Positions 17,363 through 52,400 of a stretch of DNA of 64,000 nucleotides are shown here, piece by piece (the first letter of the stretch is position 1; each line of letters starts with the position of its first letter). The DNA comes from Glutinoglossum americanum (Eukaryota > Ascomycota > Geoglossomycetes > Geoglossales > Geoglossaceae). Location: contig JAGHQL010000006.1 in the NCBI GenBank assembly GCA_020080175.1, positions 124,001 to 188,000 on the forward strand. Direction: 5' to 3'. The notes under the pieces were generated by a model that worked only from the letters and a program-made list of their open reading frames with translations, did no database searches and was not told the DNA's origin. The position numbers were made by a program, and so were the translations under genes.

Positions 17363-20300
17363 CTAAAACAAGAGGAATCTCTTCTTTTTCTTCTGCTTTT
17401 GCTGGTAGTTTTCCTCCTGGACGTTATGCCGACTTACGATAGCTAGAAACACCTCGTCCAGCGTCGTGGGGGAGACAGAGTAGTACGCTAGGCGTAACTC
17501 GTCCTTATGCGCTTCGAGCAGACGGAACACCGCGCCGATCCCTCCACTACAGGTACCGCTGGTATCACCGACCCCTCTACCATCTGCACAAGGAGTAATC
17601 TCATCATGACCGCTACCATGTGGTGCAGCTGCCGGTTCAACCTTCCGCTGATTCGCGGGAATACTAAACTTCATCTGCCCATGGTAGCTCCGATCCTCGA
17701 CCGTAGCGTTCGGGAACTTTTCGACGATCCACGCGCGTATGCGGTCCATTTCCTCTGGAGTGGTTTGGGCGGCTTTGCAGGTGATCAAGTGGACATGGTA
17801 GGCATTTCCGTATTTGTGGCGGAGGTGGGTGGGAGTTCCAAGGGCGAGCATTTTTCTGGCAAGGATGCCGACGTGGCTGGCGAGGGCATTGGCTTCTTCC
17901 ATTGAGTGTGTCTGGTTGGGGAGGTCAGAGATCGCTTTTTTCGAGGGGGGAAGAGCTTACGGTGAGGACGAGGGATCGCCCGGGGCTGACTGATAAGAGG
18001 GTTTTCCACATTGTACGTTTTGCGACTGCGTCCATACCGGAAGAGGGCTCGTCAAGGAGGAGAACAGCGGGATTGCCTGAGGTGTGACGTTAGTTTTGGG
18101 GGGGTATTTGTGAAACGTCGGGACGGAAAGCGCATACCCATCAATGCGACTCCAAGACTCAATTTCCTTTTATTTCCTCCTGACAATTTCGCAGCCATTC
18201 TATTCCCATACTCTTCTAGTCCCACAGCGCGTAACACCTCGGAGACATTATGCTCTACATCATTCACGCCCCTGATGCGGGCGTAGAAGCGGAGGTGTTC
18301 TATCGTCGTCATCTCGTCTCTCGCGTCGATCTGGGGACAGACACCGAGACGTGATCGAGCAGATGCGCGATGTTTCCTCACAGAGATATTTTCGACCAAG
18401 ATCTCGCTCTTATTGTCGGATGGCTGAATGTCTCCACGGATGAGGGAAATCGTGGTAGATTTCCCAGCGGCGTTGGGGCCAACGAGGGCAAAGATGTCTC
18501 CTCGCGTGACGCCAAATGTAACGTCTTGGATAGCGATGAGGCTTCCGTAAGCCTTCGTGGCGTGGAGAACCCGCAAACCATCGTTTGAACTGCTTACACG
18601 CTGGAGTTCCTCGGTGACGCTACTCTCTGGAGGTTCGATTTCTTCCGCATCTTCGATTCGGTAAGACTTCCTGAATCTGTTGAACATGGGTCCGCTATCC
18701 CACCACAGAAGAAAGCCAAATAGAGCGAAAGACTGGAGTAGTAGGTACAGGATAGGGCCGCCGTAGAGAGTAATGGCTCCTGGGTAGGGTGCAAGGCGCT
18801 TTCCTTGACATGACACCGCGAACATGTTGCTTAATAGGTTAGTTAGCTGGTAGGCATTTAAGGCTAAGACTAGGGACTGGGGAACTTACATGGCGATAAA
18901 TACAGCGCGGATGAGGTTTCCGGGGGGAGCGATGATAGCTATCGTGTAATGCGCAATTTTAAGCACTGAATCAACCCTTTCGGTTGGGGTAAATGAGAGT
19001 ACACAGAGGTAGGCGATGAAATATGCCAGGAACAAGACTCTAGCAGAAGGTCAGCATTGGGGTTGCCAACGTGGAGCTGGGGTGAGCCAGTGGGATGCAC
19101 ATACGCTTGACCGCCAGAACAGAAGGCGAATGCCGCCAGCTGCGACTTCGCAAACAAAGATATCACATAAGCCAGTAGGATCGATGCCAGACCATAGAGG
19201 AGGATAACTACAAATAAGTATGGCAGGTGGTACCAAACCCCGGTTGATGCGCCAGCGAACAGCCCGATAATGATCACGCTCGAAGCAAGCACAACAAGGA
19301 AATCAAACGTGACATACGCCGTCCACAACGGCAAAGCCCTCACCCCATTCGAATACTGCAACGACCTCACATTTCTCAGCCGCTCCCCCGTCGGATACAG
19401 CGCAAAGAACCCAGGAAAGGCCACCATCGCCAGCCCAAAATATGTCACAAACTGCAACGTGAACCCAGTGCCGGGAGCGTAGGGTATATCGAACGGCTGG
19501 TATTGCGTGCCGATGGAGATATTCGACGAGAGTATAGAGAGCGCGTTGTGCGTGACTATAGTGGAATAGAGATCAAAATTCGCATGATACGCGAAAGTAG
19601 CCGGTGAATCCTTAGCGGGCCCGCCAAGGAAAAATCCGCCGGGAGTGACATTATGAAAATGATTCCGAATATAATCATCGAACTCAGCCAGCGTGTCAAC
19701 AAAATGAATCGACTGCACCAGCCTGCTAACATTACGATCCCCCGTGATCGCCCCCTGGTAGAGTCCCCCAAACTTCATCAGAGAATCCAAACCCAGCCGG
19801 CTGGCCGGCCCAACGACCATGTCGAAGTCTCCCTCAAAGACGTCCCCATGTGCCGACAAGGAGGAAGTTTGCTCCGCGTTGGAACAGCCGCGGTCGCCGA
19901 ACTTGCGGATGAAGGTGCGGACTAGGATCGCGGCGATGATGGGAATCAGGAAGGCGGCGAGAAGGGGCATAAAGTTTCGGCGGAGGACTGTGAGGCGCTT
20001 GCGGAAGAGGACAAAGGCTTGAGCAGGGAGGGAGATGCGGTGGCCGGTATAGAGAGTTACGCCGTTTGCTGGTTCGTTGGGTGGTGGGGTTGGTGTTGGT
20101 CCTTTCTCCCCTCCGGGAAGGGTCGTGGTGTTTGTGCTGACAGGTGTGCTCTCGCTGCCTTCTCCCTCCTTCCGCTCAGGGGGTACAGACTTATCGGCAG
20201 GTTTGACTTCCTCCGCGACGGACATGAAAACATCCTCAATTGTTGGTCCGACGACATTGTACTCTGTGATACCCATTTCTTCGAGCTGGCCGACGAGCTG

Positions 20301-22588
20301 AGCCGCCTGCGATGAGTCTGCAACTGCGTAAGTGGTGGTATGGTCGGGCGCCGCTGGTGCCGTTAATATCGGAAACTCAGCTATGATGGGGGAGCTTGGG
20401 CGGCTAATGGTCGCATCGACGTGGACTTTGTAGCCGCCGCCGAGACGGTGTTTAAGCTCCACAGCTGATCCTTCTACTCGCAGTGTCCCTTTCGAGAGGA
20501 TCGCGATGTGGTCGGCTAGGATTTCAGCTTCGTCTAGAAAGTGAGTTGTCATAATTATCGTCCTCTTTCCGCGCTCAGCCAAGAGGATATCCCAGATCTT
20601 GCGCCGGGATAAAGAGTCCAACCCGCTCGAGACTTCATCGATGCAACACACCTGGCTTCCGCCTGCGAACATCATGCAGAGTTGAAGTTTTCGCTTTTGG
20701 CCGCCGGAAAGGGTTTTAGCTTTGGCATTGAGCTTGCGGTCGAGATCGCAGTCTTTTATCAGGTCACTTATTTGGGCTTTGGAGTCGATATGGGAGGAGG
20801 TTTTTAGTTTGTTGAAGATGCCAACATGTTCCCCGACTGTGAGGTGATCCCAAAGGACGTTCTAGGAACGAACTCAGTTAGCTGAACGGTGATTAAAGGA
20901 TTTAGGCAAGAGTTATGTACCTTTTGAGGGCAGATTCCGAGCCCACCGGTTCCATCTACCCGAATAGAACCATTAGTAAGCCTGAGCAACCCAGCAATAC
21001 ACTCCAGCGTAGTTGTTTTTCCGCTCCCATTGGCTCCAAGAAGCACCGTGATATGGCCCTTGTCCATAGCCAAGGTCAGACCATCCACTGCGATGACGGT
21101 ATCTTTGCGCCTCCCGAAGAGTGGCGCAACATATCGGAAGAACCACCCTGGCTTGTAATGCTTTGAGAACTCTGTCATTTGTACCGTGGGAGTATCGTCG
21201 TCGGCGGTGTTGGACACGACCGTTCTTGCTTTCGAGGATGTACCGTGGAGATGTCTCTCAACGAGAGCTCCAAGCAAGAGGTATGCGAAGATCTGAACTA
21301 TCAAAAAGACCCACAGGACAATACCGATGGTGCCCCAGACGCCACTAGGAGGCCGATGGACCAGGTCAGTCGGGATGTTCTGTTTCTGCCATCGAGCTAT
21401 ATAAATGAAGAAAAACACATAAGTCATCGGTGGGAATAGTAGGCCCAAAACTGTAATGGTTCCCGTATGAGCGCCCCCGTGAGAAACAACCTGGGCAACG
21501 ATAGCGAGCAAAATGGCAATAATAGTCGTCGAGATCCCGCTCAATTGTGCCTTTTTAAAAAATGCCGCGCCAAAGATAGAGAATGAAGTCAAGCTCAACC
21601 CAGCAAGGATATGGAACACGATGAGGACCCCTGGGGACGTCTTGGTGAATAAGCCGTTTGTGAGGACCAGGGACATAATTACCCAGCCCGGCAGGTAGAT
21701 GATGTCGAAAGCCAAATGATGTGAGACGAGACGGGCGAGTTGCGGTTGCCATGTATGGATATTCGTCGCCATAGCGTCTATCAGTTGGGCCATACCAGTC
21801 TCCCGTTCTGTAGCCATGAACCCAACCAACTGATAGATAACCCCAACCACGCCCACAAAAAACGCAACAGCCGTATAATCAATAATACCATTCATAAAGA
21901 TAGTACGTATATTGTCCTCCCGCTCCTGATTCGTCCTTGATGTGTAAGGGTACTCATAGACTTTGCTTGGTAACGAAGAGCGGTCTATAGTGGTGTTGAG
22001 AGAAGCGATAATGGTGTCGATCGTGTTTTGTAGGGGTATGATGTAGACCTCCACGTCGTTCGTGGACTTTCGGACATCGACCCTCGATCCGAGCGCGGCG
22101 TCTGTTCGAAGGGTGTAGTTCCAGATACCTCCGGGTCCTTCTGTCGGCGAAGAATGGAAGACCGCAGCGGCAAAGCAGCTACTCACAAGGCGCAGAGAAT
22201 TCCGACAGACATCCACCAACTCCGTTTCATTCCTCAGCACCTTGACGATCTTCCCCTTGCCCTCCACTAAGGCCACCGACTGGTTAATCACCTTCTCAAT
22301 ATCTCCCCCTTCGTAACCCCCATTCACAAATGCCACTGTGTTCCTCCCACCACTAGCCGCATCCATCGCGACGCTCAAGTCCTTGATAGGGGCAGACGTC
22401 CCTATCCCGTAGTACGCAGGAGGGACGAGGAAACGCCGCGCGTTGGCCAGAAAGACCATGTACGCAATTGGGAGGATGAACGCGCGGAGGAAAGTGCTGG
22501 GTAGGTGGCGGATGAGGGCGATGAGCAGGGTTTTGAGGGTCAACGCCCATGTTTGGCGGGGAAGAACGGAGGATGTTTTCCGCGGCAT
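17363..22588 (-). CDS. Full-size ABC-A (ABCA-like) transporter
   Basis: Six exons (22588-20921, 20861-19105, 19039-18890, 18829-18138, 18076-17961, 17911-17363) with GT..AG introns of 49-65 nt join in phase to about 1,643 residues, the usual size of a full ABCA protein. Order: first membrane domain with a large loop after helix 1; NBD1 with Walker A GANGSGKTT (about residue 518), GICPQK, signature LSGGQKRKL, Walker B VCCIDEVSSGLDSL and H-loop TTHFLDEAE; second membrane domain; NBD2 with Walker A GPNAAGKSTT, GVCPQ, signature LSGGNKRKL, Walker B AVLLLDEPSSGMD and THSMEEA. Both ATP sites look functional. NBD1 has Cys and Val around the Walker B aspartate, and NBD2 has Ala in place of Gly in the P-loop. 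ABC-A proteins move lipids across membranes in animals; the fungal substrate is unknown. The tail ends in a Lys-rich stretch. Confidence 0.92.
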
Positions 22589-23774
22589 TGTGATGACCGG
22601 TGATGCGAATTGGCTGGGAGGGCGTGGGAGGCCAGAAGAATAAGACGGTAGTGAGCTACCCTAACCCCTTCAGTCACAACCCCCGAAGGTCTCCACCGAA
22701 ACGGCGAGAGAAAAGTATTGTGGTACGCCGCTGAAACTCGAGGCAGCACGACAACACACCGTCTTGCTAGTATGCCCCCACTAGCAATGCGCATAGCCCA
22801 TCTATGCGGGAATCGGTCTAGAAAGTCAGAGAGCTAAGGCTTTCGGCAAGGTGGACCGACGTTTGGCCAAGTTGAATTCAACGCCTCCAAGGGTGAATAC
22901 GATCAGACCCTGGCAGCCGACAGCCTATCAAATCGAGCGAAGTTGAGACGCTGTTGGCATGGCTTCTCCAAGCCGCTGGTCGTACGACCGGCGGAGCGGT
23001 TGAATGGGTGAGGAGCCCAAAGCCGCGTAAGCGAGTGAGGCTGATGGTCGGAAAGTCGACGCGCGATTTTCGCGCACCAAGTTATTCCACTCGAAAATGG
23101 ACCAATAGATCTGCGATGTGGTTTTTGGCGTGCGGTTCGACCTCGTATCCAGCGAATTTGCTGGGGCATGACATTTCACAGACCCCGGCAAGTCCTCCGT
23201 GTCTTGCGTCGCCGCAGCACTGCAGCCACATCTGAAAACGGGCAAGCGAGGCGCAGCATGAAGCATGAAGCATGAAGCGGCACGTCCAAAAGACCTAAAC
23301 ACGTGATTAAATTTTTAACGCAGCAGGGGTACGGAGCGGAAAGATACCAAGCAAATACCCAATTTATTGGTTATCATTTTTGCGCTTAGTTATGGAGAGT
23401 ATGGGCCCCTAGATAACTTATGCCATAAAGATTCAGCAACCAGCGGCCTGCACGTGACAATACTATTACAGCTCCCTTCAGGACGGCTGATGGAGCACAG
23501 AGACCTTTAAGCCTCACCCTTAAAAGCCATCCTACCAAGGAGATAAAATACTACACAACAGAATAGACATACCAAAATAGGCCAACTCTGTCCTAGCACG
23601 TGATCTACCCCTCCCTAAGAAGCAACCGTTGCAGATCAATAGATGGATGATGTTATAAGCCGATATCCACATACCGGCACTCCCTTTGACCTATATGTGT
23701 TCAAGTTGCAGATCGGCAGTCCGGTGTTACCAAGACTGCGCTGGCCTCTTGAATCACCCCGGACCAGCCCCGAC
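22589..23774. other. Divergent promoter region, ABC-A / NACHT-ankyrin
   Basis: Non-coding space between two divergent genes. It contains three CACGTGA boxes near the NACHT side and a triple GCATGAAG repeat at about 23,255-23,280. A frame at 23,643-23,774 is in phase with the NACHT first exon and could extend it, but the first likely start is 23,775. Confidence 0.5.
23300..23603 (+). promoter_or_regulatory. Three CACGTGA E-box-like sites
   Basis: Identical heptamers at 23,300-23,306, 23,451-23,457 and 23,597-23,603, all in the same orientation and 172-475 bp before the proposed NACHT-ankyrin start. CACGTG is the core bound by fungal bHLH factors such as Cbf1. That these sites act here is inference. 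Confidence 0.35.
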
Positions 23775-26700
23775 ATGAGTGAACGTAAAAGGCGACATAG
23801 CGGGGGCGAGCGCAGCGGAGAAACGCCAGCGAAACTTTTAGTTACGCAACAGGGGAGAAGTGAGTTCAAAAGTGCCAACAGTGCCAGCGGAGGAGCAATC
23901 TTCCAGGGAAACGTTTCTGCACCAGGCGGCTCGGTCCAGATCAGTATGTCAATCCGCCTCTCGGAGCCTGCGGGTGTTGCTGATGCTGCCCACATCGGAA
24001 GCGCAAAACATTGTACAAGACGAGTCACGTAGGTAGAGCCTATGTATTACCTATTCCATGCCTTACATCGAGATCAACTGAGACACCGCACAGTTGCAAC
24101 CGATGCAAGAGACCGCGAGTGTCTGCATGCTCTATTCGTTACAAACCCCCTTGACGACAAGGCCAATATCGAGACTACAAGGGACAAACTGCTAGATGGC
24201 TCGTGTTCTTGGTTACCTAAAGACCCCTTGTTCATACAGTGGCTGGATAGAGTTGAATCACGGCTCCTTTGGATACACGGCGATCCAGGCAAGGGCAAGA
24301 CCATGCTTACGATATCGTTAATAGAATACTTCAAACGATACTCTAGCCCTAACACAATCCTCGCATATTTTTTCTGTGATGGTAAAGATGACAGACGCAA
24401 CACTGCGGCCGGTATTCTGAGAGGACTCATGTACCAAGTCTTGTGCCAACGGCCCTCCCTCTTAAGCTACCTCCGACAAGAATACGACAGGCAGAGAGAC
24501 CAGCTATTTTCACCCCCAAATGCCCTGTATGCATTGTGGCGGATCTTGCAAAACATGTTGCAGCACCCTACGGACGACGCCCTGTATCTTATGGTCGATG
24601 CGCTCGACGAATGTGAGGTAGAATCCCGTATGGCCTTGCTCAAGCTTATGGAACCTTACATCAATGGCACGGCCGATGGCAAACATTCAACTCCGAACAC
24701 AAATGTCAAATGGCTCTTTACGAGCCGAAATGAACGCCTAATAGACGAATCCTTGACCGGCGCCTTGGATATCAGCCTCGAGGCGAACTCTCCTCATGTC
24801 ACTAACGATGTTAAGAAATTCATCGCGGAAAAACTCCAGCAGCTGACCTTTAATAAAGGCTATGACTGCGAACTTCAGGAGTCTATCCGATCTGAGCTTC
24901 AGCAGAAAGCCGGGGACACCTTTCTTTGGGCCAGTCTAGCGTGCTCGGAACTTGAGAAAGCTGAATCTATCTGGGCGGAGGAAGTGCTCGCCACGTTACC
25001 TCCCGGCCTAGATTCGTTATACAGACGGATATTAGAACAGATCCTCAACAATAAACACCAGGGATCACAACAGATTGTGAAAGATATCTTGTGCTCCGTA
25101 ATAGCTACATTTCGACCGCTCACCCTTCAGGAGCTGGCCGTGATGGCAGACCTACCAATGAAACACCGAAACCACCCGGAATACCTATTAGAATATGTAA
25201 GCCAGTGCGGGTCTTTTTTGACGATCCGCCACGAGACGGTCAATTTTGTGCACCAGTCAGCCAAGGATTACCTCTTATCGGACGAGGCGTCTCTACACTT
25301 CTCACCGGATTTGGCTAAGGAGAATATGGCTCTAGCGGGCCGGTGCGTACGCTACATTTGTGGCGGAGTTTTCAACGCTAGAGCTATCCAGCTGGCTTCC
25401 GAATGCGATGAGGAAATAGTAGTCGCTACCAGCGAAGGTGAAGGGCCAAACCGGGACATCGGAGAGACGAACCCTGACCAAGGCCCTTATCTTGAATACC
25501 CAATAAATTTTTGGTTGGATCACGCGAAACTCGCGTCAACGGAAATAGTAGATGTCTTCAATGGAGAGCCTGAGTTCTTCCAGCTGAAGTCTGGACTAAG
25601 GGACGCTTGGTTTCACTTATACTGGGGTAGCCTACGGAGCTGGCGGAGGACACCTAAGAGGTTTACGCCATTGCACCTCGCAGCTTATTCGGGGTTTCTA
25701 CCGCTGGCCATCAAGGTGCTGGAGAGTAATAAAACACAAGCTGATGCTAAAGATGACTACGGTAGAACACCCCTTTCATGGGCGGCGGAGAATGGGCACG
25801 ATGTTTTAGTACAGTATCTACTCGGTACGGGCCGAGTAGATGTTGATGCTGAGGATTGGTATGGTTGGACACCGCTGTGGTGGGCAGTGATGAATGGACA
25901 AGGGGCCGTGGTGCAACAGCTGGCCACAACGGGTGGAGCCAACGTCGATGCCGTAGACGAGTTTAAGCGAACCCCGCTGGTGTGGGCGCTTGAGAATGGG
26001 CAAGAAAATGTGATCAAACACCTGGTGGCAAGGGGCCAAACCTATACCTATGCCACTGATGGGCATGGCCAAACGGTCCTATCGTGGGCTGCGAAAAATG
26101 GAAAAGAAGAAATCGTGCAGCTCCTCCTACCGTCGGCAGGGGCGAACATCAACGACAAGGACAAGGAAGGCCTCACGCCGTTAGGATGGGCAATCCAGAA
26201 TGGGCATAAGGCTGTGTTGCGGCAGCTAGTGGCAATGGCCGGAGCTAATGTCAATACCACAGATTCGCAAGGTCGGACGGTTCTAATATGGGCCGCGGTA
26301 AACGGAGATGAGGTCACGACCAAACTGCTCCTGGCGTCTGGGCAGGTAAATATCAATGCAACGGACTCCGAAGGCCGGACATCATTACTGTGGGCGGCCC
26401 GGAATGGGCACAAGGCCGTGGCACGGCAACTGGCCTCAATGAGTGGAATTGAGACCAATGCCACCGATGAGCAAGGTCGAACAGCTCTAATATGGGCCGC
26501 GGTAAACGGAGATGAGGTCACGACCAAACTGCTCCTAGCGTCTGGGCAGGTAAATATCAATGCAACGGACTCCGAAGGCCGGACATCATTACTGTGGGCG
26601 GCCCGGAATGGGCACAAGGCCGTGGCACGGCAACTGGCCTCAATGAGTGGAATTGAGACCAATGCCACCGATGAGCAAGGTCGAACAGCTCTAATATGGG

Positions 26701-27440
26701 CCGCGGTAAACGGAGACGATGTCACGGTCAAGCTGCTCCTAGCATCTGAGCGGGTAAACATCAATGCTATAGACCCCGAAGGCCGGACGTCACTATGGTG
26801 GGCAGTTTGGTGCGGGCATAATGCCGTGATGCAGCGGTTAGTCACAACGGGTAGGGCTAAACTAGGTGCCACGGACGGAGCCAGTGAAGTGGAGTTGTTA
26901 ATGGCGGCGATGAGAGGGCACGACATTATACAGTTCCTAGCGTCGGCACATGTGAACGTCAATACTAGGAACGCTATTGGTCTAACGCCACTACTATTAG
27001 CAGTTGAACACAAGCGCGAGGCCGCGGTGCTGCAGCTAGTCACAATGGACGAAACAGATGTGGATGCCACGGACATGGGCGGCCAAACGGCTCTGATGCG
27101 GGCTGCTAGAAGTGGAAATGAGGTCATAGTCCATCTTCTCCTAGCGTCAGGACGGTCTAATATCAATGCTCAAGACTCGTTTAACCGGAAGCCACTGTGG
27201 CATGCGATTAAAGGGTACTCTGATACGTGGGGACACCAGTCATTGGTCGGGCGATACGAGCAAATAGTCCGGCTTCTGCTTGAGAACGGGGCCGACCCTA
27301 GCGAGCGCGAGTTACTACAAGCAGCTCCAAATCCCCACAGCAACAGAGAGATATTCCAGCAGGTGCTGAAGCTTGCCGTGGGTGTTCACCGAAGGGTATT
27401 GCGATACCCCATGGAAGAGAGTGAGGGGGAAGGAGAATAG
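23775..27440 (+). CDS. NACHT-ankyrin NLR-like receptor
   Basis: Exon 1 (23,775-24,012) and exon 2 (24,094-27,440), joined through an 81-nt GT..AG intron, give about 1,194 residues. Residues 1-79 are a polar N-terminus with a Gly/Asn segment (GGAIFQGNVSAPGG). The linker has the usual CLHALFVTNPLDDKANIE before the NACHT ATPase: Walker A GDPGKGKT (about 142-149), Walker B LYLMVDALDE, then a sensor region with LFTSRNE. A winged-helix-like region follows (PLTLQELAVMADLP.. FVHQSAKDYLL), then about fourteen ankyrin repeats from residue 600 to near the end. Such proteins are fungal NLRs, implicated in non-self recognition and cell death. The in-frame TAG at 24,030 lies inside the proposed intron. If the intron is wrong, translation would start at 24,042 and give 1,132 residues. 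Two ankyrin units are almost identical in DNA. Confidence 0.88.
26271..26678 (+). repeat. 204-bp near-identical tandem duplication in ankyrin array
   Basis: Two back-to-back 204-bp units (26,271-26,474 and 26,475-26,678), each coding two ankyrin repeats. I count four base differences, all near the start of the unit. A third, clearly diverged unit follows. The flanking repeats are much less similar, so this is a recent duplication or gene-conversion event. Confidence 0.9.
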
Positions 27441-32675: not shown

Positions 32676-35536
32676 TTATCCACTCCTAAATATCGCCACC
32701 GTCTCCGAGAACCCATCCCTATTGTCCGCCGCCTTCGCCAAACTCGCCCCATCCCTATCGATCATACTAATACTCCCAATAGTATTCAAGCCATAAAGCC
32801 CCACATTCCTCACCCTCGCCCCCTCAATCGACACGATCGAATTCTGACACCCCCCGGCTCCCGACTGCGAGCAAGCTGCACACCCCCAATTCAAGTCAAC
32901 ACCCCAAATCGACCAACGGGGGTGGGGGGGGGGAATCAATAAAAAGCAGGAAAGAAACGCACCAGTACTCCAGTTATTAAAAAACGAATAAATCCCCGCC
33001 CCGTACCCCAGCACATCCGCCGAATCCACGACCCGCAGCCCCCACGCCGCCGCGCAGTTCCCGCTCTTCCCCGCGCACTTCACCGCGAAGTTCGGGTCGC
33101 GCCACGTGGCGTTATACTTGAACGGCAGCAGGGCCGTGGGGTTGGGCTGGTAGTACGGCGTCTCGGACTGGATCTGGCCCATGAAGATGGACTTCGTGGT
33201 CGCGAACTGGTACTGGTAGAGGGTTGCGTGTTCGACGCCGGTGCCGACGCTGGGTATGTTTAGCTCTGGGGGATGGGGGAGGGGGAGGGGGGAGGCTCAC
33301 AGCCAGATGTTGCCCGAGGCGCTTTCGACGTGCAGGCCGCGGCCGGTGTAGATTGTGATCTGCGCGATGCTCGGGTCGTCGACGTCGTGGTCGGCGGTCC
33401 AGAGCCAGACGTTCTCGAGGTAGATCCCCGTCCCACTGGGTGAGATGTGCATCATCATGAAGGCGGCGATGCAGGATTGTTTGAGGTTCGCAGATGTGAT
33501 TGTGGTTCCGGGCGTGATCGGGCAGTTGGACGCCCGGAGGTTGGAGCCTGCGAAGCCGCCAACCTGGGTGGTTCGTGCCACGTTAGCTTGCCGCTGGGGC
33601 GCGGGGCCGGGGGGTTTTACTCACTCTTGTGTGCACATCCCACATCCCCGATGGCGCCGTGCTAGGGGATGCAAGGTTCCATTGGATTAGAATTGCCCCG
33701 GCTTGCGCTCCCTGCGTGCTGACGATCATGTCTGACCACTCTACTTGCCCTTGCTGTCCCGCTGCGCCAACCTTCACTACCGGCCTCGGGTTCGCCTGAT
33801 TCGCAAACAGACTCCCACTCGACATGATAACCGCGTAACCCTCCCCGACCACCTTCGCCCCGGGCGGGATATTGATCGTATTCGTCACGCGATAGGTCCC
33901 TGCGTCGATAAACGCAACCTGGCCCTGTTGCGTGGCGGTGGTTATCGTATTCTGCAAAGCCGCAGTGTCGTCTGTGACGCCGTCGCCTTTTGCACCTGTA
34001 GCCCGTGCGGACCTAAAGCGCGAGAGGGCTAAGGATTCGTATTGGGGCTTTGAGCGCTCGAAGTAGGCGCCTGATTTTAGGAGGGAGGCCGGGCGGGTGA
34101 AGGCGGTTAGGGGCCCCTGGAAGTTGGTGGGGCCCGACGGGGTGTACGAGTGGCCCTGGCCCCAGGCAGCAATTGTCGTCGTGCCTGCGGTACCGGCTAG
34201 GAGGGTGGAGGAGGGGCCTTGCACGGCGATGGGGACATTGTTTAAGGAGACGTTTTCAAGGATCATAGTCCCGCTTGTGGTGGTTTGGGAGATGGTGTGC
34301 GCGGTGGAGATCCCGACATGAGTGTTGGTTATGCTGCTGTCGAATAGGACGATTGAGCCGACGGCTTGGGCAGAGGTGCCCCCGGCTGCGATGTTGATGC
34401 CGGTGGTGCAGTTGTTGATGTTGATGGATTTATAGGTCCAGCCCCAGTCCCAGAGTTGGTCAATGGCGGTAACAGCGTTGTTGATGGTTATGTTGCGCAT
34501 TGTGAACTGCTGGTTGCCGACTGAGGCGGCTTTGAGGCCCCCGTAGAACACAAGGTCGTTAATCATACCGCCGGAACCTGGTTGAACGAAGGCTGTTAAG
34601 GTGAACCACCCTGCATTTTCCTGGGTAGGGACGACGTACCGCTCTCAATGAAAAGCCCAACATGCTGCGTTCCTGGCGCATCACTCATCTTAAACACGAT
34701 ATTCTGCAAACTCGTTGCCTGTGCCGTTGGCCAATGAATACCCGTTGCTCCTGTACCCGGCGGAATAGCCGTCATATCGATAACGAAATTCCTAATCTGT
34801 CTCCAAAACACGTTTATAGATTCCCACGCAAGACTTCCCCCTGCTTGATATTGATTACCATCGATTACTCCAAACCCAGTTAGTCCTGGGGTAGCTTTGA
34901 GAACGGGTGGGCAGTTGGGGTTGCCGATTAGTTGCGTATAGTAGTAATCGATTATCGAGGAGGAGATGAGGTAGGTACCGGCAGGGAAATAGACTATTGC
35001 GGGGGTGGTGGAGGTGGAGGCGCAGCCAGGGCCGCAGCGGCTACCACTGCTGATTGCATTGTTAATTGCGGCTGTGTCGTCCGTGACGCCATCGCCTGTG
35101 GTTTTACACGGTGGATGTCAATTCACCACGAGATGCCGGCTAGTGCGTGAAGGGAGAGTGAGTTCGACATACCCTTCGCCCCAAAATCCTTCACGTTCCG
35201 GAAAGTCTTATACGACTTATCTGGATTGAACGCCGAGGTACCTTGATGCGTAATCTGCTCCAACCAGTAGGACGCGCACGACGGGGCCACTGCGGCCGCC
35301 GCAGCAACAATTGATGTCGATGTCGACGTCGATGTCGATGAGGTCGTCGAGGACGTGGATGTTGTTGACGTCGTCATGGAACTCGTGGTTGAGGTGGTTG
35401 ACGACGAAGTCGACAACGTAGTCGAGGATGTCGACGTCGTACTCCTAATGGCCGTCGTCCTTGGCTGCTGAGTAGCAGGCGCCGCTCCCACAACCCCAAC
35501 TAGCACCGCGGTCACCGCAAAAATATCGAGGCGCAT
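32676..35536 (-). CDS. GH55 exo-beta-1,3-glucanase, secreted
   Basis: Six exons (35536-35173, 35095-34640, 34577-33625, 33563-33301, 33249-32963, 32875-32676), with introns of 51-87 nt in phase, give about 840 residues, in the GH55 size range. Order: signal peptide (MRLDIFAVTAVLVGVVGAAPA), a Ser/Thr-rich linker of about 55 residues that is probably O-glycosylated, then a first pectate-lyase-3-type beta-helix starting YWLEQITHQG with FGAKGDGVTDDTAAI. A second beta-helix has ATGAKGDGVTDDTAALQN. The double GDGVTDDTAA signature and the late GTGVEHATLYQYQ and SETPYYQPNP stretches are typical of GH55. The enzyme releases glucose from beta-1,3-glucan, in nutrition or wall remodelling. The long S/T linker is less common for the family. 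The start is the first ATG before the signal peptide. Confidence 0.9.
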
Positions 35537-38155: not shown

Positions 38156-38758
38156 ATGAAGTCTATCACCCTAATTTTGACCTCTCTGGTCCTCCTCTTC
38201 AGTACCTCCCTCGCTGTACCAGCTCCCATGCCCGCTCCACCCACCCAAACCGACAGTACATTCATCAGCAATGTCCTGACTCGCGTCAACAACTACCGTA
38301 AGCAACACAGCGCTGCTGCTTTGACATGGGATGCTACTCTCGCCGCGTATGCCCGCACGCAAGCGAACGGGTGCAAGGCAGTGCACACTGTAAGCTACCC
38401 TTGCTCTTCCTAACTCGCGACCTTCCACCCCCCTTTCCCCACAAACCCACCCCCACTAACGCGTACCATACAGGGTAAATATGGCGAAAATATCTACAAC
38501 TTCTGGACCACGGATCCTAACCCAAACTTCACAACCTGGACCAACAGCGCCATCGACTTCTGGATGTCCGAAGCCCCGAAATACACCGTCAGCAACCCTG
38601 CTCCCGCCTATCATTTCACCCAGCTCGTGTGGAAGAGCAGCAAGCGCATCGGCTGCGCCTGGTCCGTGAGCAAGTGTCCTGATACCAACTACTATTTCTA
38701 CTGCGAGTTCGACCCTATGGGAAATATTGCGGGTCAGTTTGCCGCGAATGTCTCTTGA
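38156..38758 (+). CDS. CAP superfamily (PR-1/SCP-like) secreted protein
   Basis: Two exons (38,156-38,389 and 38,474-38,758) around an 84-nt intron give 172 residues. The signal peptide is MKSITLILTSLVLLFSTSLAVPA. The CAP domain follows with VLTRVNNYRKQHSAAALTWD (first helix), the GENIY motif, HFTQLVWKSSKRIGCAWS and the terminal YYFYCEFDPMGNIAGQF. The first canonical cavity His is replaced by the QANGCKAVHT region, while Glu of GENIY and His of HFTQLVW are present. Fungal CAP proteins (Pry-like) bind sterols or fatty acids and are exported. It is intact. It is the nearest ordinary fungal gene on the murA side and shows that the surrounding DNA is fungal. Confidence 0.93.
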
Positions 38759-39544: not shown

Positions 39545-40841
39545 TTATTGTTTCGACACTCTCCCCCCCACGCCCTCAACCTTCCCCTCCAACTGGTCAT
39601 ACCCCCTCTCAATCATCTCCCATTCCCCCACAACCGTCTCCCCTTCCGCCACCAACCCCGCAACCACCAAACACGCACCGGCTCTCAAATCTCTCGCCAC
39701 AACCTCCGCGCCCTTCAGCCTCTCCACCCCCCGCACAACCGCTACAGTGGACTCCCTACTACCTCCACTCACCGTAATATCCGCGCCCATTCGCCGCAAC
39801 TCCGCTACGTGGGCGAAGCGATGCTCGTACAGCGTTTCCGTTATAGTGCTTACTCCGGAGGCAAGGCAGAGGAGGGCCGTGAGAGGAGCCTGAAGGTCTG
39901 TGGGGAAGGAGGGGTAGGGACCTGTTTGGGTGTCTGTTGCTCGGAGATGGGGTGCTTTGTAGACTGTAATGGCATCTTCACCCGCGACTTCTATCCTCGC
40001 TCCTACAGCTCTTAGCTTCTCCACCACTGTGCCCAGACACGCAACCGCGCAGCCCTTAACCGCCAACGACCCACCCACCAAAGCTCCAACAATCATCCAC
40101 ATCCCGCATTCAATCCAGTCACCCATAACCCTATACCTATATAGCTTCAAGGCCATCCGTCCACGAATCCTTATAGTCTCGCTCCCTGCGCCCTCGATAA
40201 AAGCCCCCATACCCACTAGGCAATTCGCCAGATCGCTGATTTCAGGTTCGCGGGCTGCATTGTGGAGCGTGGTGATGCCGGATGCGGAACAGGCGGCGAG
40301 GAGGAGGTTCGCAGTCCCGGTTACTGTGGGCATGGTGAACGTGATTTCTGCACCGCATAATCCGCTTGGGGGTGCGCGCGAGGATTGAGTTCCGCTTAAG
40401 GGTTATTTCAGCGCCCAGCGCACGAAGACCCAGGATGTGTTGATCTATCGGCCTCCCATTACCGCCAATCTCGCACCGCCCCGGCATCGAAACCTTCACT
40501 CCGTCACAACCTGGCCTCCCCACCAACGCGCCCAACACCAAAACACTCACCCTCACCCTACCTGCTAATTCCCTCGGCACAACGACCACACCCCCATCAG
40601 CAATCACATGCGGTGTATCTAGACGAAGGTTCCCGCCTCGCCTCTTGACCTTCGAGCCGAGGTGAGAGAGGATGAGGAGGAGGTTCTGGACATCAATTAT
40701 ATTTGGGGCGTTGCGGAGGATGTGCGAGCCAGGTACGAGAAGGGATGCGGTGAGGAGAGGGAGAGTGGCATTTTTGGAGCCGGAAACAGAGATAGTCCCT
40801 GTTAAGTGGGGAGTCGGCCCATGGATCTTGAGCGCAGACAT
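39545..40841 (-). CDS. murA: MurA: UDP-GlcNAc enolpyruvyl transferase, one C-run frameshift
   Basis: About 431 residues, intron-free, full MurA length (bacterial 417-430). MurA transfers enolpyruvate from PEP to UDP-GlcNAc, the first step of peptidoglycan precursor synthesis. Catalytic residues are all visible: Lys23-Asn24 in SGSKNATLPLL, the Arg-rich strand GRVRVSVLVLG, Cys123 in SMPGRCEIG (the fosfomycin-target Cys115 of E. coli) and Arg130 in GRPIDQHILGLRALGA. Later come NAAREPEISDLAN, the aspartate in FPTDLQAPLTALL, HVAELRRMGA and the arginine in RDLRAGACLVVAG. The Cys-to-Arg loop is two residues longer than in E. coli. The frame changes once, at a five-C run on the coding strand (40,368-40,372). 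With four C the spacing to the next conserved block equals that of E. coli. It is either a sequence error or a very young lesion. Divergent neighbour of murB. Confidence 0.9.
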
Positions 40842-41338
40842 ATTTCTAAACCCGTCGAAGGCGGACGGGAGCTTCTTGGTTCCTGTCCCCAGTCCGATCG
40901 GTAGAATATAGAATATAAAGCGGTCGTTTCTGTTGCCGTCCCTGGCACTGGCTCTGGCGGTTAAATAAAGCGAAAACAGAACCTACCACGCCGAGCTGAA
41001 GCCAAGCAAAATCAAGCATCGCCACGGAGAATCAAGCATTACCACGGGGATGAGCGAGGTAAATTCGCTAATCTCATTTCCCTCAAGCCAAACAGATCCT
41101 CTAGATCGTCAGGGACCATTTCCGGTCATGAACGGAATTTATGGTTCCGGGGGCGCCAAGATCTCGGGTTTGTGGTGTTCCGGGGAGCTGAGGAGGTTTG
41201 GGTTTGCGGCAGCGAGAAGACACCCTGTCTGACAGCTCAACGAGGGCCTCCGAGGGTTTGGTTCATCCGCATACCTGGGATCCCGTCCCAAGTGCAGAAT
41301 GCCAACCCCAAACTCCCCACCACTCAAACTAGATCGCC
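40842..41338. promoter_or_regulatory. Shared bidirectional murA-murB promoter region
   Basis: 497 bp separate the two start codons. There is no ribosome-binding purine box before either ATG. The murB leader is C- and A-rich (CACCACTCAAACTAGATCGCC before ATG, within 41,318-41,338), as in fungal genes. A tandem repeat lies at 41,010-41,047. Coordinate expression is inference. Confidence 0.55.
41010..41047 (+). repeat. Tandem 18-bp direct repeat in murA-murB promoter
   Basis: AATCAAGCATCGCCACGG (41,010-41,027) and AATCAAGCATTACCACGG (41,030-41,047): 16 of 18 bases identical, centre spacing 20 bp, about two helical turns. It sits 169 bp from the murA ATG and 292 bp from the murB ATG. This layout suits a dimeric regulator, but no factor is known to me. 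Confidence 0.6.
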
Positions 41339-42430
41339 ATGCTCGCAATCGAAGAAAACGTCTCCCTCCTCCCTTACAACACATTCCAAATCCCATGCAA
41401 CACCCGCCATCTAGTCAGAATCCGCTCCCAAAGCGATATCCACAAACTCCTCGCCTCCAACTTATTCACCCAAAACATCAAAACCCACCTAATCCTGGGC
41501 GGTGGCAGCAACATCCTCCTCACGACCTCACACTACCCCGGTCTAGTCCTAAAAAACGAAATCCCGGGCCTCCACCCCCTCCGCTCCGACCACACTCACA
41601 CCTACCTCAGCGTCGGCGCAGGCGTAGAATGGAACTCCCTCGTCGCATACAGCATCGCGCATAACCTCGGGGGCATCGAGAACTTGAGTCTAATCCCAGG
41701 GACGGTGGGTGGAGCGACCGTGCAGAACATCGGTGCATACGGCGTCGAGTTCAAGGACGTGGTTGAGAGCGTTGAAGGGGTTTCCCTAGAGAGCGGGGAG
41801 GTACGGAGGTGGTCAAGGGACGAGGGTATGTGGGGATATAGGGATAGTCGGTGGAAACAGGATAAAACCTGGTTCGTAACCGGCGTTGTGATTAAGCTTT
41901 CGAAAACGGGGTTTCACAAACTAACAACCACCTATCCCTCCCTCCACGCCTCCCTCCCGGACACAGAAGCCCCTCTCACTATCCACACCCTCTGCGCCAC
42001 CATAACCGCCCTCCGAACGGCTGCTCTCCCTTCCCCCGCCGACCTGCCAAACGCAGGCTCCTTCTTCAAGAACCCCTCCATCACCCCCACCCTCCTCGCA
42101 CACCTGAAATCCAAACACCCCCACATCCCCCATTTCACCCCCCGTGGCGACGGCGAGTCCTCGTGCGACGGAAGCGAGGCGGTGGTTAAGATTCCCGCAG
42201 CGTGGCTGATCGAACAATGCGGGTACCGTGGAAAGAGGGTTGGGGATGTGGGGTTGTACGAGGGCCACGCACTTGTTCTAGTGAATTTTGGAGGGGGTGT
42301 TGGCGGGACCGGGGAGGGCGTTTGGAGGTTGGCGCGGGGGATAAGGGAGGGGGTTTGGGAGAGGTTTGGGGTGGTGTTGCAGGAGGAGGTAGTGGTTGTT
42401 GGCGGGAGGGAAGCGGATGTTTGGGTATGA
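41339..42430 (+). CDS. murB: MurB: UDP-N-acetylenolpyruvoylglucosamine reductase
   Basis: A 363-residue intron-free frame, close to the 342 residues of E. coli MurB. MurB uses FAD and NADPH to reduce the MurA product to UDP-MurNAc. FAD-binding segments are LILGGGSNILL (54-58 core) and SLIPGTVGGATVQNIGAYGVE (118-137). The active site has Tyr167-Arg168 in GYRDSRW, Ser241 in NAGSFFKNP (the proton donor, Ser229 in E. coli) and Glu350 in VLQEEVVVVG (Glu325 in E. coli). AAWLIEQCGYRGKRVGD and HALVLVN are also conserved. The presence of the Tyr loop and the NAGSFFKNP context indicate the type I (E. coli-like) enzyme. Apart from a longer C-rich insertion around residues 258-280 nothing is missing. The closest bacterial donor cannot be told by eye. 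Confidence 0.95.
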   Translation: MLAIEENVSLLPYNTFQIPCNTRHLVRIRSQSDIHKLLASNLFTQNIKTHLILGGGSNILLTTSHYPGLVLKNEIPGLHPLRSDHTHTYLSVGAGVEWNSLVAYSIAHNLGGIENLSLIPGTVGGATVQNIGAYGVEFKDVVESVEGVSLESGEVRRWSRDEGMWGYRDSRWKQDKTWFVTGVVIKLSKTGFHKLTTTYPSLHASLPDTEAPLTIHTLCATITALRTAALPSPADLPNAGSFFKNPSITPTLLAHLKSKHPHIPHFTPRGDGESSCDGSEAVVKIPAAWLIEQCGYRGKRVGDVGLYEGHALVLVNFGGGVGGTGEGVWRLARGIREGVWERFGVVLQEEVVVVGGREADVWV

Positions 42431-44856: not shown

Positions 44857-45072
44857 GGGATCTAGAGGGGCAGATTCTGAAGCTCCCTTTCCCACCGCAT
44901 CTACGTCTGTATTGAGCTTCCTTAAGCCTCCACTTTTCAGAAAATATCCGCACCCTTCAGACTTCAGATTTTGCATTTGAGCATCGGCTTCGCAGGACTT
45001 CAAGGTCGTATCGTTGACATTCTACCTCCCCTTCAGCCCCAGCATTATTATCTACGCCCAAAAGTCTACAAA

Positions 45073-45711
45073 ATGAATCCTTATTATATCCCTGGGGCAC
45101 TCGTCTCGTTTCCGCTCTATGTTCCACGGATGTATCCCAACGAAAACCCTCCACCATACGCCATCGCGGTACAACAGATCCCAGCCGTCGCCGGCCCTCG
45201 TCTGCAAGCACGTCCACACCCGGTTCCACATTACTTCGCCGGCCCGATCGCTCCGGCTGCCCCTCCTGCCCCCCCAGCCGCACCAGCTGCGCCAGCCGCC
45301 GGAGTCCCTCCTAATGATGACGCCCCACCCGGCGCCCGCTTCGGCGGGAACCGCGATGGCCTCCCGCGCGGAGCCAGCTATCTCTATCCGGCAAAGCACA
45401 CGACAATTCACGTGGTCAAGGGGAACTTCGATCCCCTCACCAATCCGGGAACCGAATTCAACTTCTGGGTCTTCAAGGTCGCAACAATCCTCACGATCGG
45501 CGATTTGATACTCCAGCTCGGCGGCCGCGCTGGCGGAAACGATAAGTGCGGGATCACGGAGCTTCTGGAAGTCGGAGACGGGTCGTGGGCGAAAGGGATT
45601 ACTATTTTTCAGAAGGATGACCAGAAAAAACAGACCATGGCCGCTGTGGGATGGGATGAGACCAGGGGGGCGGCAAAGGGGCCTGTTTGGCTGAAAGTCC
45701 ACAAGGGATAG
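45073..45711 (+). CDS. Conserved hypothetical with Ala/Pro linker
   Basis: 212 residues from an ATG with a good context (CAAAATG). Residues 1-60 are rich in Pro and Tyr, residues about 70-95 are an Ala/Pro-rich linker, and the C-terminal 115 residues are a compact domain. That domain reads GLPRGASYLYPAKHTTIHV, then GNFDPLTNPGTEFNFWVFKV, ILTIGDLILQLGG, GDGSWAKGITIFQKDDQKK and GWDETRG..PVWLKVHKG. The domain looks conserved in style and I believe similar proteins occur in other ascomycetes, but I know no function. No signal peptide or membrane helix, so probably intracellular. Intron-free and complete. Confidence 0.7.
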   Translation: MNPYYIPGALVSFPLYVPRMYPNENPPPYAIAVQQIPAVAGPRLQARPHPVPHYFAGPIAPAAPPAPPAAPAAPAAGVPPNDDAPPGARFGGNRDGLPRGASYLYPAKHTTIHVVKGNFDPLTNPGTEFNFWVFKVATILTIGDLILQLGGRAGGNDKCGITELLEVGDGSWAKGITIFQKDDQKKQTMAAVGWDETRGAAKGPVWLKVHKG

Positions 45712-49472: not shown

Positions 49473-52400
49473 CTAGATGAATGTCCATTGCAGCTCGGCT
49501 GCTTCACGGTGCCTGCCTAGAGTTTGGAGCAGGGAGCGGAGGAGGTCAATGGTCAACCGTGTGTTGCGATGATCTTTCCCAAAAGCCTTCTCTTCCCCTG
49601 CCAATGTCAGGCGGAGCAATTCCTCCGCCTCTCCATACTCGCTCCTACTATACAGCAAGGTACCAAGGGTGTACATACTGGAGAGTGTGCCAGGGTGACC
49701 CTTTCCCAGTACCTTCTCACTTTTTGACAATACTGCCCGGAGTAATTTCTCCGCCTCTTCATACTCGCCCCTACTATCCAGCAAGCTGCCAAGGGCATAC
49801 ATACTGGATAGCGTTTCGGGGTTGTTCTCTCCTAGTATCTCCTCCCTCCTTGATAACACTGTCCGGAGTAATTTCTCCGCCTCTCCAAACTCGCCCCTGC
49901 TATCCAGCAAGCTGCCAAGGGCATGCACACTGGATAGCGTTTCGGGGTGGTTCTCTCCTTGTACCTCCTCCCTTCCTGATAACGCTGTCCGGAGTAATTT
50001 CTCCGCCTCTTCATACTTGCCCCTGCTATCCAGCAAGCTGCCGAGGGCATGCATGCTGAATAGTGTGTTAGGGTGACCCTTTCCCAGTACCTTCTCCTCC
50101 CCCGATAATGCTGTCCGGAGTAATTTCTCCGCCTCTTCATACTCGCCCCTGCTATGCAGCAAGTCGCCAAGGGCGTACATACCGGATAGCGTTTCAGGGT
50201 TGTTCTCTCCTAGTATCTCCTCCCTCCTCGATAATGCTGTCCGGAGTAATTTCTCCGCCTCTTCATACTCGCCCCTGCTATGCAGCAAGTCGCCAAGGGC
50301 ATACATACTGGATAACGTTCCAGGATTGTTCTCTCCTAGTATCTCCTCCCTCCTTGATAACGCTGTCCGGAATAATTTCTCCGCCTCTTCATACTCGCCC
50401 CTGCTATCCAGCAAGCTGCCAAGGGCGTGCATACTGGATAGCGTTTCAGGGTTGTTCTCTCCTAGTATCTCCTCCCTCCTTGATAATGCTGTCCGGAGTA
50501 ACTTCTCCGCCTCTTCATACTCGCCTCTACTATGCAACAAGCTGCCAAGGGCGTGCATACTGGATAGCGTTTCAGGGTTGTTCTCTCCTAGTATCTCCTC
50601 CCTCCTTGATAATGCTGTCCGGAGTAACTTCTCCGCCTCTTCATACTCGCCTCTACTATGCAACAAGCTGCCAAGGGCGTGCATACTGGATAGCNNNNNN
50701 NNNNTTCATACTCGCCTCTACTATGCAACAAGCTGCCAAGGGCGTGCATACTGGATAGCATTTTGGGGTTGTTCTCTCCTAGTATCTCCTCCCTCCTTGA
50801 TAATAGTGTCCGGAGTAATTTCTCCGCCTCTTCATACTCGCCCCTGCTATGCAGCAAGCTGCCAAGGGCGTGCATACTAGATAGCATGTCAGGGTGGGCC
50901 TTTCCTAGTATCTCCTCCCTTGATAATACTGTCCGGAGTAGCTTCTCCGCCTCTCCATACTCGCCCCTGCTACCCAGCAAGCAACCAAGGGCGTGCATAC
51001 TGGATAGTGTGTCGGGGTGGCCCTTTCCCAGTATCTCCTCATCCCTTGATAATACTGTCCGGAGTAACTTCTCCGCCTCTTCATACTTGCCCCTGCTATG
51101 CAGCAAGATGCCAAGGGCATACATACTGGACAGCATGTCGGGGTGGCCCTTTCCCAGTATTTCCCCATCCCTTGATAACACTATCCGGAGTAGCTTCTCC
51201 GCCTCTTTATACTCGCCCCTGCTATCCAGCAAGCAACCAAGGGCATACATACTGAATAGTGTGGAGGGGTGGTCCTTTCCCAGCACCTTCTCCCTCCCCA
51301 ATAATGCTCTCCGCTTAAATTCCTCCGCCGCCCCGAACCGGCCCTGGTCATGCAGAGCGTCGCCTAGTTCAGCCAGGCTCGTCAGCGTATCGATATGCTC
51401 CCTCCCAAGCGTCTTCTCCCTTCCTGCTAGGACCCTCCGGAAAATGCCCTCTGCCGCTTCGTACCTAACATTCCTTTGGAGAACCAAGGCGAGGTGGCTC
51501 GCACTGGATAATGTGTCGGGGTGGTCAAATCCTAGCATCCTCTCTTCGATCTCCAGCATTCGTCTACATAGTTCTATTTCGTCCCCCGGTTCGACCCTGT
51601 CATAGTAGGCCGATACTAGGCCCTCGGCCGCTTGTGACGCACCAGAAGAGTGACGGTTCATCTGGTTGTACGGCAGTCCCATGCTACCACCGGACCCTTG
51701 GTATATTTCACCGACGATTGCGGGTAGTTTGACGGCGGTCAGCGTTGAAGGGTGAGCTGTTTGTCTTGCCCGAGGGCTGTATCTGGCGGTGCTTGTTTCG
51801 GTTCTGGTATGCTGGTAAGCCGAATGGTAGGTAATATTTAGGGTCTCCGTGCTAAAGAGCTCTTGGGCTATCGTGCCAGGCATGCATAAGCCCGGACTGG
51901 GGGGTTGGGGATCGTTAGGTAAGCCCGGAGTTGAGGTTATCGTTTGGTCTATGAGTGTGTTGGGAGCTGAGTCGGTGGCCAAAGGGCCAGCTTGGGGAGC
52001 TAGAAAAGCGGCCGGGCTATGGACGGCGAAAGGGTTAAAAATTGAGCGAGCGAGATCATACTCCGCTGGTGAACCGGGAAGAGGATCTGGGCTTTTGTTG
52101 GCACGGAAATCCGTAGGCGTGCTAACATATTCTGGGTAGGCCGGCGGGTCCGGTAAAACAGCTGGACTTTGGCCGTCAGTATGTAGCACACTCGGAGTCG
52201 GGGGGCCTTCGCCGGCAGGAGTGTAATAGCTGATATCTGATGGTGTGGCTAAGGGTTGAAGATCAGAGAACCATAATGTCTAAGGGAGGGAAGGTAACTG
52301 TTCACCTGCGGCCGGGCTTGGTTGCGACAGGAGGGCATCTTCTGATATGCTCTTCCTCTTGCTAGTGCGGGCAATCTTCTCGGGTTCCACGTCGCGGTCT

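Follow-up and report, generated by a model that had tools for sequence, protein, structure and literature searches.

The DNA analyzed here, a 64-kb stretch of the earth-tongue fungus Glutinoglossum americanum (Geoglossomycetes) that we call the window (positions 124,001-188,000 of contig C274; the genome searched was a 25.8-Mb assembly with 317 contigs), carries the divergent murA/murB pair that a first-pass annotation had reported between 39545 and 42430. As seen from open-frame translation, MurB lies in one frame and MurA homology lies in two, and the pair is real and located in fungal DNA. Judged by its sequence, MurB is a bacterial-type gene common to ascomycetes of at least three classes, if Aspergillus, Penicillium, and Hirsutella are placed in their usual classes. 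The explanation that we prefer, at a probability of roughly 0.48, is that bacteria were the source of murB, and at some point of murA, in a fungal ancestor, and that the UDP-MurNAc route is used outside peptidoglycan. Such a UDP-MurNAc module best explains the fungal clade; in G. americanum itself, decay of murA is nearly as likely.

MurB is intact and groups with other fungal MurBs

The murB gene (41339..42430, plus strand) is an intact frame of 363 aa with the domains PF01565 (63.4 bits, cut-off 26.4) and PF02873 (82.3 bits, cut-off 27), and its scores exceed the MurB equivalog cut-offs of TIGR00179 (182.6 bits versus 144.5) and PRK00046 (325.5 versus 277). Its best solved-structure relatives are MurBs, and its product is the only MurB_C match in the G. 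americanum genome. Tyr167-Arg168, Ser241, and Glu350, which we take to be the catalytic residues, are all present, as the first-pass annotation had claimed for the Tyr-Arg, Ser, and Glu, and are conserved across the other fungal-clade rows (Tyr167 in 38/38; Arg168, Ser241, and Glu350 in 37/38 each). The predicted activity is that of an NADPH-dependent UDP-N-acetylenolpyruvoylglucosamine reductase.

When 79 near-invariant columns were audited, the window MurB departed from nine of them and 170 other rows from at most four, which made the window copy look like an outlier. With bacteria-only columns, of which 104 are invariant across 132 non-fungal rows, the window copy changes 20 and the 38 fungal-clade rows change 10-18, which puts the window just outside the fungal range. 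The retention of Tyr167, Arg168, Ser241, and Glu350, together with the 104-column counts, points to a MurB under constraint in fungi with a slightly looser window copy, i.e., one that is, by its sequence, only a little less constrained than other fungal MurBs.

A profile was built from six fungal-clade MurBs, and the best 120 of its 8,000 matches were used. These 120 include at least 18 proteins named as fungal from at least 16 species (seven Aspergillus, eight Penicillium, and Hirsutella minnesotensis), and the 18 or more fungal MurBs are 41-48% identical to the window MurB; MurBs outside the fungal clade reach at most 47% among the matches listed. The first-pass annotation had named the lack of a homologous pair in any related fungus as grounds for abandoning its proposal; homologues of the single genes do occur in other fungi, MurB in these named species and MurA in A. 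fumigatus, according to PMC3293747.

In the wider MurB tree (89 rows), the 38 fungal-clade rows, 18 of them named as fungi, and the window were separated from the 50 other rows, five of which are named as Bacteroidota, with a support of 99/93. The tree rooted on an outgroup (four distant MurBs from an IMG/VR scan, used only thus) places the window and 19 fungal-clade rows, 13 of them named as fungi, in one clade with a support of 99/88, recovered in 98% of 200 bootstrap trees. The fungal clade adjoins Bacteroidota-type bacterial MurBs. The window MurB branch is long (0.97), so that its position inside the clade is less certain than the fact that it belongs there. Of 20 fungal marker columns it has 8, and of 36 bacterial ones 12, a mix that fits an early-branching window MurB; an independent acquisition from a closely related bacterium would produce such a mix too, but the tree does not favor it. 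In the 89-row tree, the Hirsutella MurB was placed among Eurotiales rows, so fungus-to-fungus transfer may have occurred and the gain cannot be dated from this tree.

As expected of a bacteria-to-fungus transfer, murB groups with fungi beside bacteria and sits in fungal DNA, and its grouping with Aspergillus, Penicillium, and Hirsutella argues that the gene has long been in fungi and is not contamination. MurB supports the horizontal gain from bacteria and long retention that had been proposed for the pair; for MurA, what stands of that proposal is a bacterial-type ancestry, its nearest rows being metagenomic.

The murA reading frame changes within the gene in this assembly

The first-pass annotation had described two intron-free genes, which does not hold here: murB is one open frame, but murA is spread over two, and a description of both genes as intact is wrong for this assembly. 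Across its whole span (40841 to 39545, minus strand), murA has homology in two frames, the first ~155 and the last ~270 residues lying in different frames that join near 40360. The first piece (40242..40841, minus strand; 199 aa from the ATG; PF00275 71.1 bits) matches TIGR01072 at model positions 1-152 with 122.7 bits and is homologous over about residues 1-162 (to about 40356), and the second (39545..40402, minus strand; 285 aa stop to stop; PF00275 182.6 bits) matches model positions 151-415 with 297.7 bits and is homologous from about residue 12-15 to residue 284. The reading frame shifts by one base in the stretch 40355..40375 (minus strand): frame 1 runs ...ITLKRNSILARTPKR, and the other frame takes over at GLCGAEITFTMPTVTGT. 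Together the two pieces cover the whole model with nothing missing, and neither homologous stretch holds a premature stop. Scored singly, neither piece reaches the TIGR01072 equivalog cut-off of 392.7 bits. In this assembly, murA has neither one open frame nor a splice form in which the catalytic loop survives; the frame break may be genuine or may stem from an error in sequencing.

The two pieces follow directly on each other along the model, which leaves no space for an intron, and the completeness of the homologous stretch indicates a frame change instead. The deposited protein FGG08_000539 (P0121; 352 aa) is obtained by excising 40324..40561 (minus strand), a 238-bp intron that deletes the catalytic-Cys loop, which is coding by homology, so that this intron is probably a gene-finder artifact. 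The gene model appears to mask the frame break, and the database annotation of the protein as MurA is misleading. The abutting coordinates and the loss of the Cys loop in the splice that reproduces the deposited protein rule out an intron in murA. A programmed frameshift was also considered and is unlikely: no stop codon interrupts frame 1 where the pieces join, and no known slippery site was seen there by eye.

The catalytic motifs of MurA that the first-pass annotation had listed were recovered. The first piece retains the Lys-Asn, Cys, and Arg (C115 and R120 in E. coli numbering, by position in the printed 1uae alignment); the second retains the PTD, ENR/EHR-F, DLRA, and RGY motifs. The window MurA departs from 13 of 83 near-invariant columns, with a mean of 0.63 departures in 192 other rows; a single row exceeds it, with 16 changes, and is probably the truncated locus L025, and P0145 with 7 and P0123 with 6 come next. 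Additionally, the Cys loop is unusual, reading PGRCEIGGNGRPID against PGGC-IG-RPID in relatives, with a two-residue insertion.

The frame break and the 13 changed columns make decay in G. americanum a live alternative. It is a serious possibility, if a somewhat doubtful one, that the ancestors of this fungus used the pair, that murA is now a pseudogene, and that murB is either without substrate or on its way out; the two-residue insertion beside the catalytic Cys would be a further sign of this, next to the frame change near 40360. The frame change is, however, a single lesion in a gene whose homologous stretches are both stop-free and whose motif residues survive, and MurB is an open frame with only slightly more bacterial-column departures than other fungal MurBs (20/104 versus 10-18). 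The retention for a new role that had been suggested for the pair is half supported: the intact MurB, conserved across fungi, speaks for it, and the state of murA speaks against it.

It is improbable that the pair has instead changed its chemistry and would act on another acceptor without making UDP-MurNAc, by analogy with NikO, the enolpyruvyl transferase of nikkomycin biosynthesis. The unusual cysteine loop and the altered near-invariant positions could be read in this way, and NikO is among the solved relatives of the MurA pieces, but it scores 69.6 bits against up to 227 for MurA with the second piece and 42.8 against up to 99.6 with the first, and no natural-product cluster was recognized nearby among the Pfam-scanned frames of the window.

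Relatives of MurA

Among the best 120 of 7,928 matches, no other protein exceeds 54% identity to the second MurA piece, and among the GTDB loci kept from the matches listed, none exceeds 50%. The sole fungus-named protein in those best 120 is the window's own record. No Bacteroidota name occurs among the MurA matches listed, most of the best 120 of 7,928 carrying no name at all. In a tree of 73 rows, the window grouped with the metagenomic proteins P0123 and P0145 (89/95) inside a clade of 16 rows (99/99), two of which are named as bacteria (P0128, a Myxococcota MAG, and P0153, a Deltaproteobacteria MAG); none of the 30 GTDB loci placed in the tree fell into this clade. P0123 and P0145 share 11 rare states with the window MurA, compared with a mean of 0.31 and a maximum of 7 for 300 random pairs, and they may be fungal MurAs. 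The window murA lies in fungal DNA, and its tree is of bacterial type, with P0123 and P0145 as its nearest rows. Among 377 genomes of the phylum of locus L083, P0130 had no match at E<=1e-145, in a search run without a positive control and at a cut-off that excludes only close kin; weaker P0130 matches, at 55-56% identity, exist.

The pair is joined to fungal flanking genes

The two ATGs of the divergent genes are separated by an intergenic region of 497 bp (40842..41338). GC3 of murA and murB is 0.61-0.70, inside the range of 0.48-0.77 for other window frames. The murA side holds a CAP gene and a pectate-lyase-like gene, with a NACHT-ankyrin gene and an ABC transporter farther left. The intron-bearing fungal flanks of the first-pass annotation were seen in the CAP-superfamily gene (38156..38758, plus strand), where removing an 84-bp GT-AG intron (38390-38473) yields one clean frame; the gene that it had called GH55, with two frames in 33586-35117, matches Pfam PF12708 (pectate-lyase-like).

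The ABC transporter gene (18939-22660, minus strand) is present as two overlapping frames of 618 and 640 aa and is probably intron-interrupted. The NACHT-ankyrin gene (24033-27440) encodes a protein of 1135 aa with a NACHT (NPHP3_N) domain and ankyrin repeats, of the NLR-like fungal receptor type. To the right of the pair are TPR genes, plus an F-box-like gene with weak scores. A TPR-repeat gene contains a 10-N scaffold gap (50695-50704), with a different open frame on either side; the frames 49473-50705 and 50588-52279 may be one such gene split by the gap.

Pfam gave no match for the 261-aa frame on the murB side (44926-45711), nor for any of the ten frames scanned in 42.8-49.1 kb, and one of the 20 short frames scanned near the pair, taken from 53 listed, had a match (the CAP gene). 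No UDP-MurNAc-using gene or gene cluster was recognized among the Pfam-scanned frames of the window.

The 10-N gap is the sole N run of the window, with none in 1-50694, and the pair is joined to the flanking fungal genes without an intervening scaffold gap; a chimeric join, which the first-pass annotation had named as a possible refutation, is not seen at the scaffold level. The gap suggests that the assembly is short-read; no Geoglossomycetes genome paper was found among the papers listed. An assembly chimera or bacterial contamination is hardly credible, since the assembly is indeed scaffolded but position 1-50694 is free of N, MurB groups with fungi, and non-fungal-clade MurBs and other MurAs reach only 47% and 54% identity, respectively, among the matches listed; contamination was rejected on the fungal MurB clade and the gap-free link to the fungal flanks.

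The route would end at UDP-MurNAc

Six-frame searches of the genome found no match to PF01225, the N-terminal domain of MurC-F (a control search had matches in 10 of 14 genomes), and no match to AnmK. PF08245 had one genome match at 26 bits and PF07478 had six at 24.8-40.7 bits (cut-off 24 for each); presumably these are fungal folylpolyglutamate synthase and large ATP-grasp enzymes, which match these models. The best EPSP-synthase match is a frame of 1,369 aa on contig C39, which we take to be AROM, probably. With neither PF01225 nor AnmK, the murA/murB pair could lead no further than UDP-MurNAc. Within the limits of six-frame searches in an assembly that is incomplete, the genome is unlikely to encode the whole peptidoglycan pathway, and the last product to be expected is UDP-MurNAc.

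Under our preferred reading of a UDP-MurNAc module outside peptidoglycan, a fungal ancestor would have taken up murB from bacteria and, at some point, murA as well. Fungi make UDP-GlcNAc for chitin, and the MurA reaction followed by the MurB reaction is an established sequence of two steps. In fungi, MurA would add enolpyruvate from PEP onto the 3-OH of UDP-GlcNAc, and MurB would reduce the product to UDP-MurNAc. The genome has no convincing MurC-F ligase, so the route would stop there and could not reach peptidoglycan. UDP-MurNAc, or a sugar derived from it, might then be put to another use, for example in a glycan that carries MurNAc, in a small molecule, or in signaling to bacteria. A more speculative claim, which we consider rather unlikely, is that such an acquired module is present in three or more classes of filamentous ascomycetes and serves, outside peptidoglycan, to make a muramyl compound (glycan or metabolite) that has so far gone unseen in fungi.

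If fungi do make UDP-MurNAc, muramic acid in soil could not be taken as a marker of bacteria alone, and fosfomycin and other MurA inhibitors may act on targets in fungi. The pair makes testable the use of peptidoglycan's first special sugar in a eukaryote without peptidoglycan, and annotated MurB-type genes occur in species of Penicillium and Aspergillus, a good many of them open to culture and manipulation.

Comparison with known systems

Among the papers listed, none dealt with a fungal MurB, or with a murA-murB pair in fungi, by its title and abstract opening. We presume that a GO term such as 'UDP-N-acetylmuramate dehydrogenase activity' could be a loosely mapped FAD-domain label. This term appears in an A. 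flavus comparison in part of PMC6028093. The main text of PMC11708051, on prokaryotic genes in 829 fungal genomes, contains neither 'muram' nor 'carboxyvinyltransferase'. A fungal MurA homologue is, in contrast, already published: according to a passage of PMC3293747, the A. fumigatus gene Afu2g09590 (udpA) belongs to the MurA family, is strongly hypoxia-induced, and is syntenic in several Aspergillus species, with its function given as unknown. An A. fumigatus gene with the enzyme name of Afu2g09590 is raised in an afpA deletion, according to a portion of PMC12470788. Like the window murA, Afu2g09590 is a bacterial-type MurA in an ascomycete, the likeness being one of family and published description; unlike the window murA, which is frame-broken, it is expressed, and the passage of PMC3293747 makes no mention of MurB.

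The fungal UDP-N-acetylmuramate dehydrogenases of Aspergillus, Penicillium, and Hirsutella share both clade and domains with the window MurB and differ from it in sequence (41-48% identity, best 120 of 8,000 matches). The MurA and MurB of bacterial peptidoglycan synthesis have fold families, motifs, and NCBIfam models in common with the window pair, whereas the window genome lacks a match to the PF01225 ligase domain, is eukaryotic, and has the pair around a divergent 497-bp promoter region. Mealybugs are a further eukaryote with bacterial-type Mur enzymes. In moss and spruce, bacterial-type Mur enzymes of the plastids are encoded by the eukaryote, as described in parts of PMC9434261 and PMC12681378. 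In moss, spruce, and mealybugs, as far as these descriptions go, the pathway reaches peptidoglycan or serves an organelle or symbiont, whereas in the G. americanum genome it is the first two steps only that were found.
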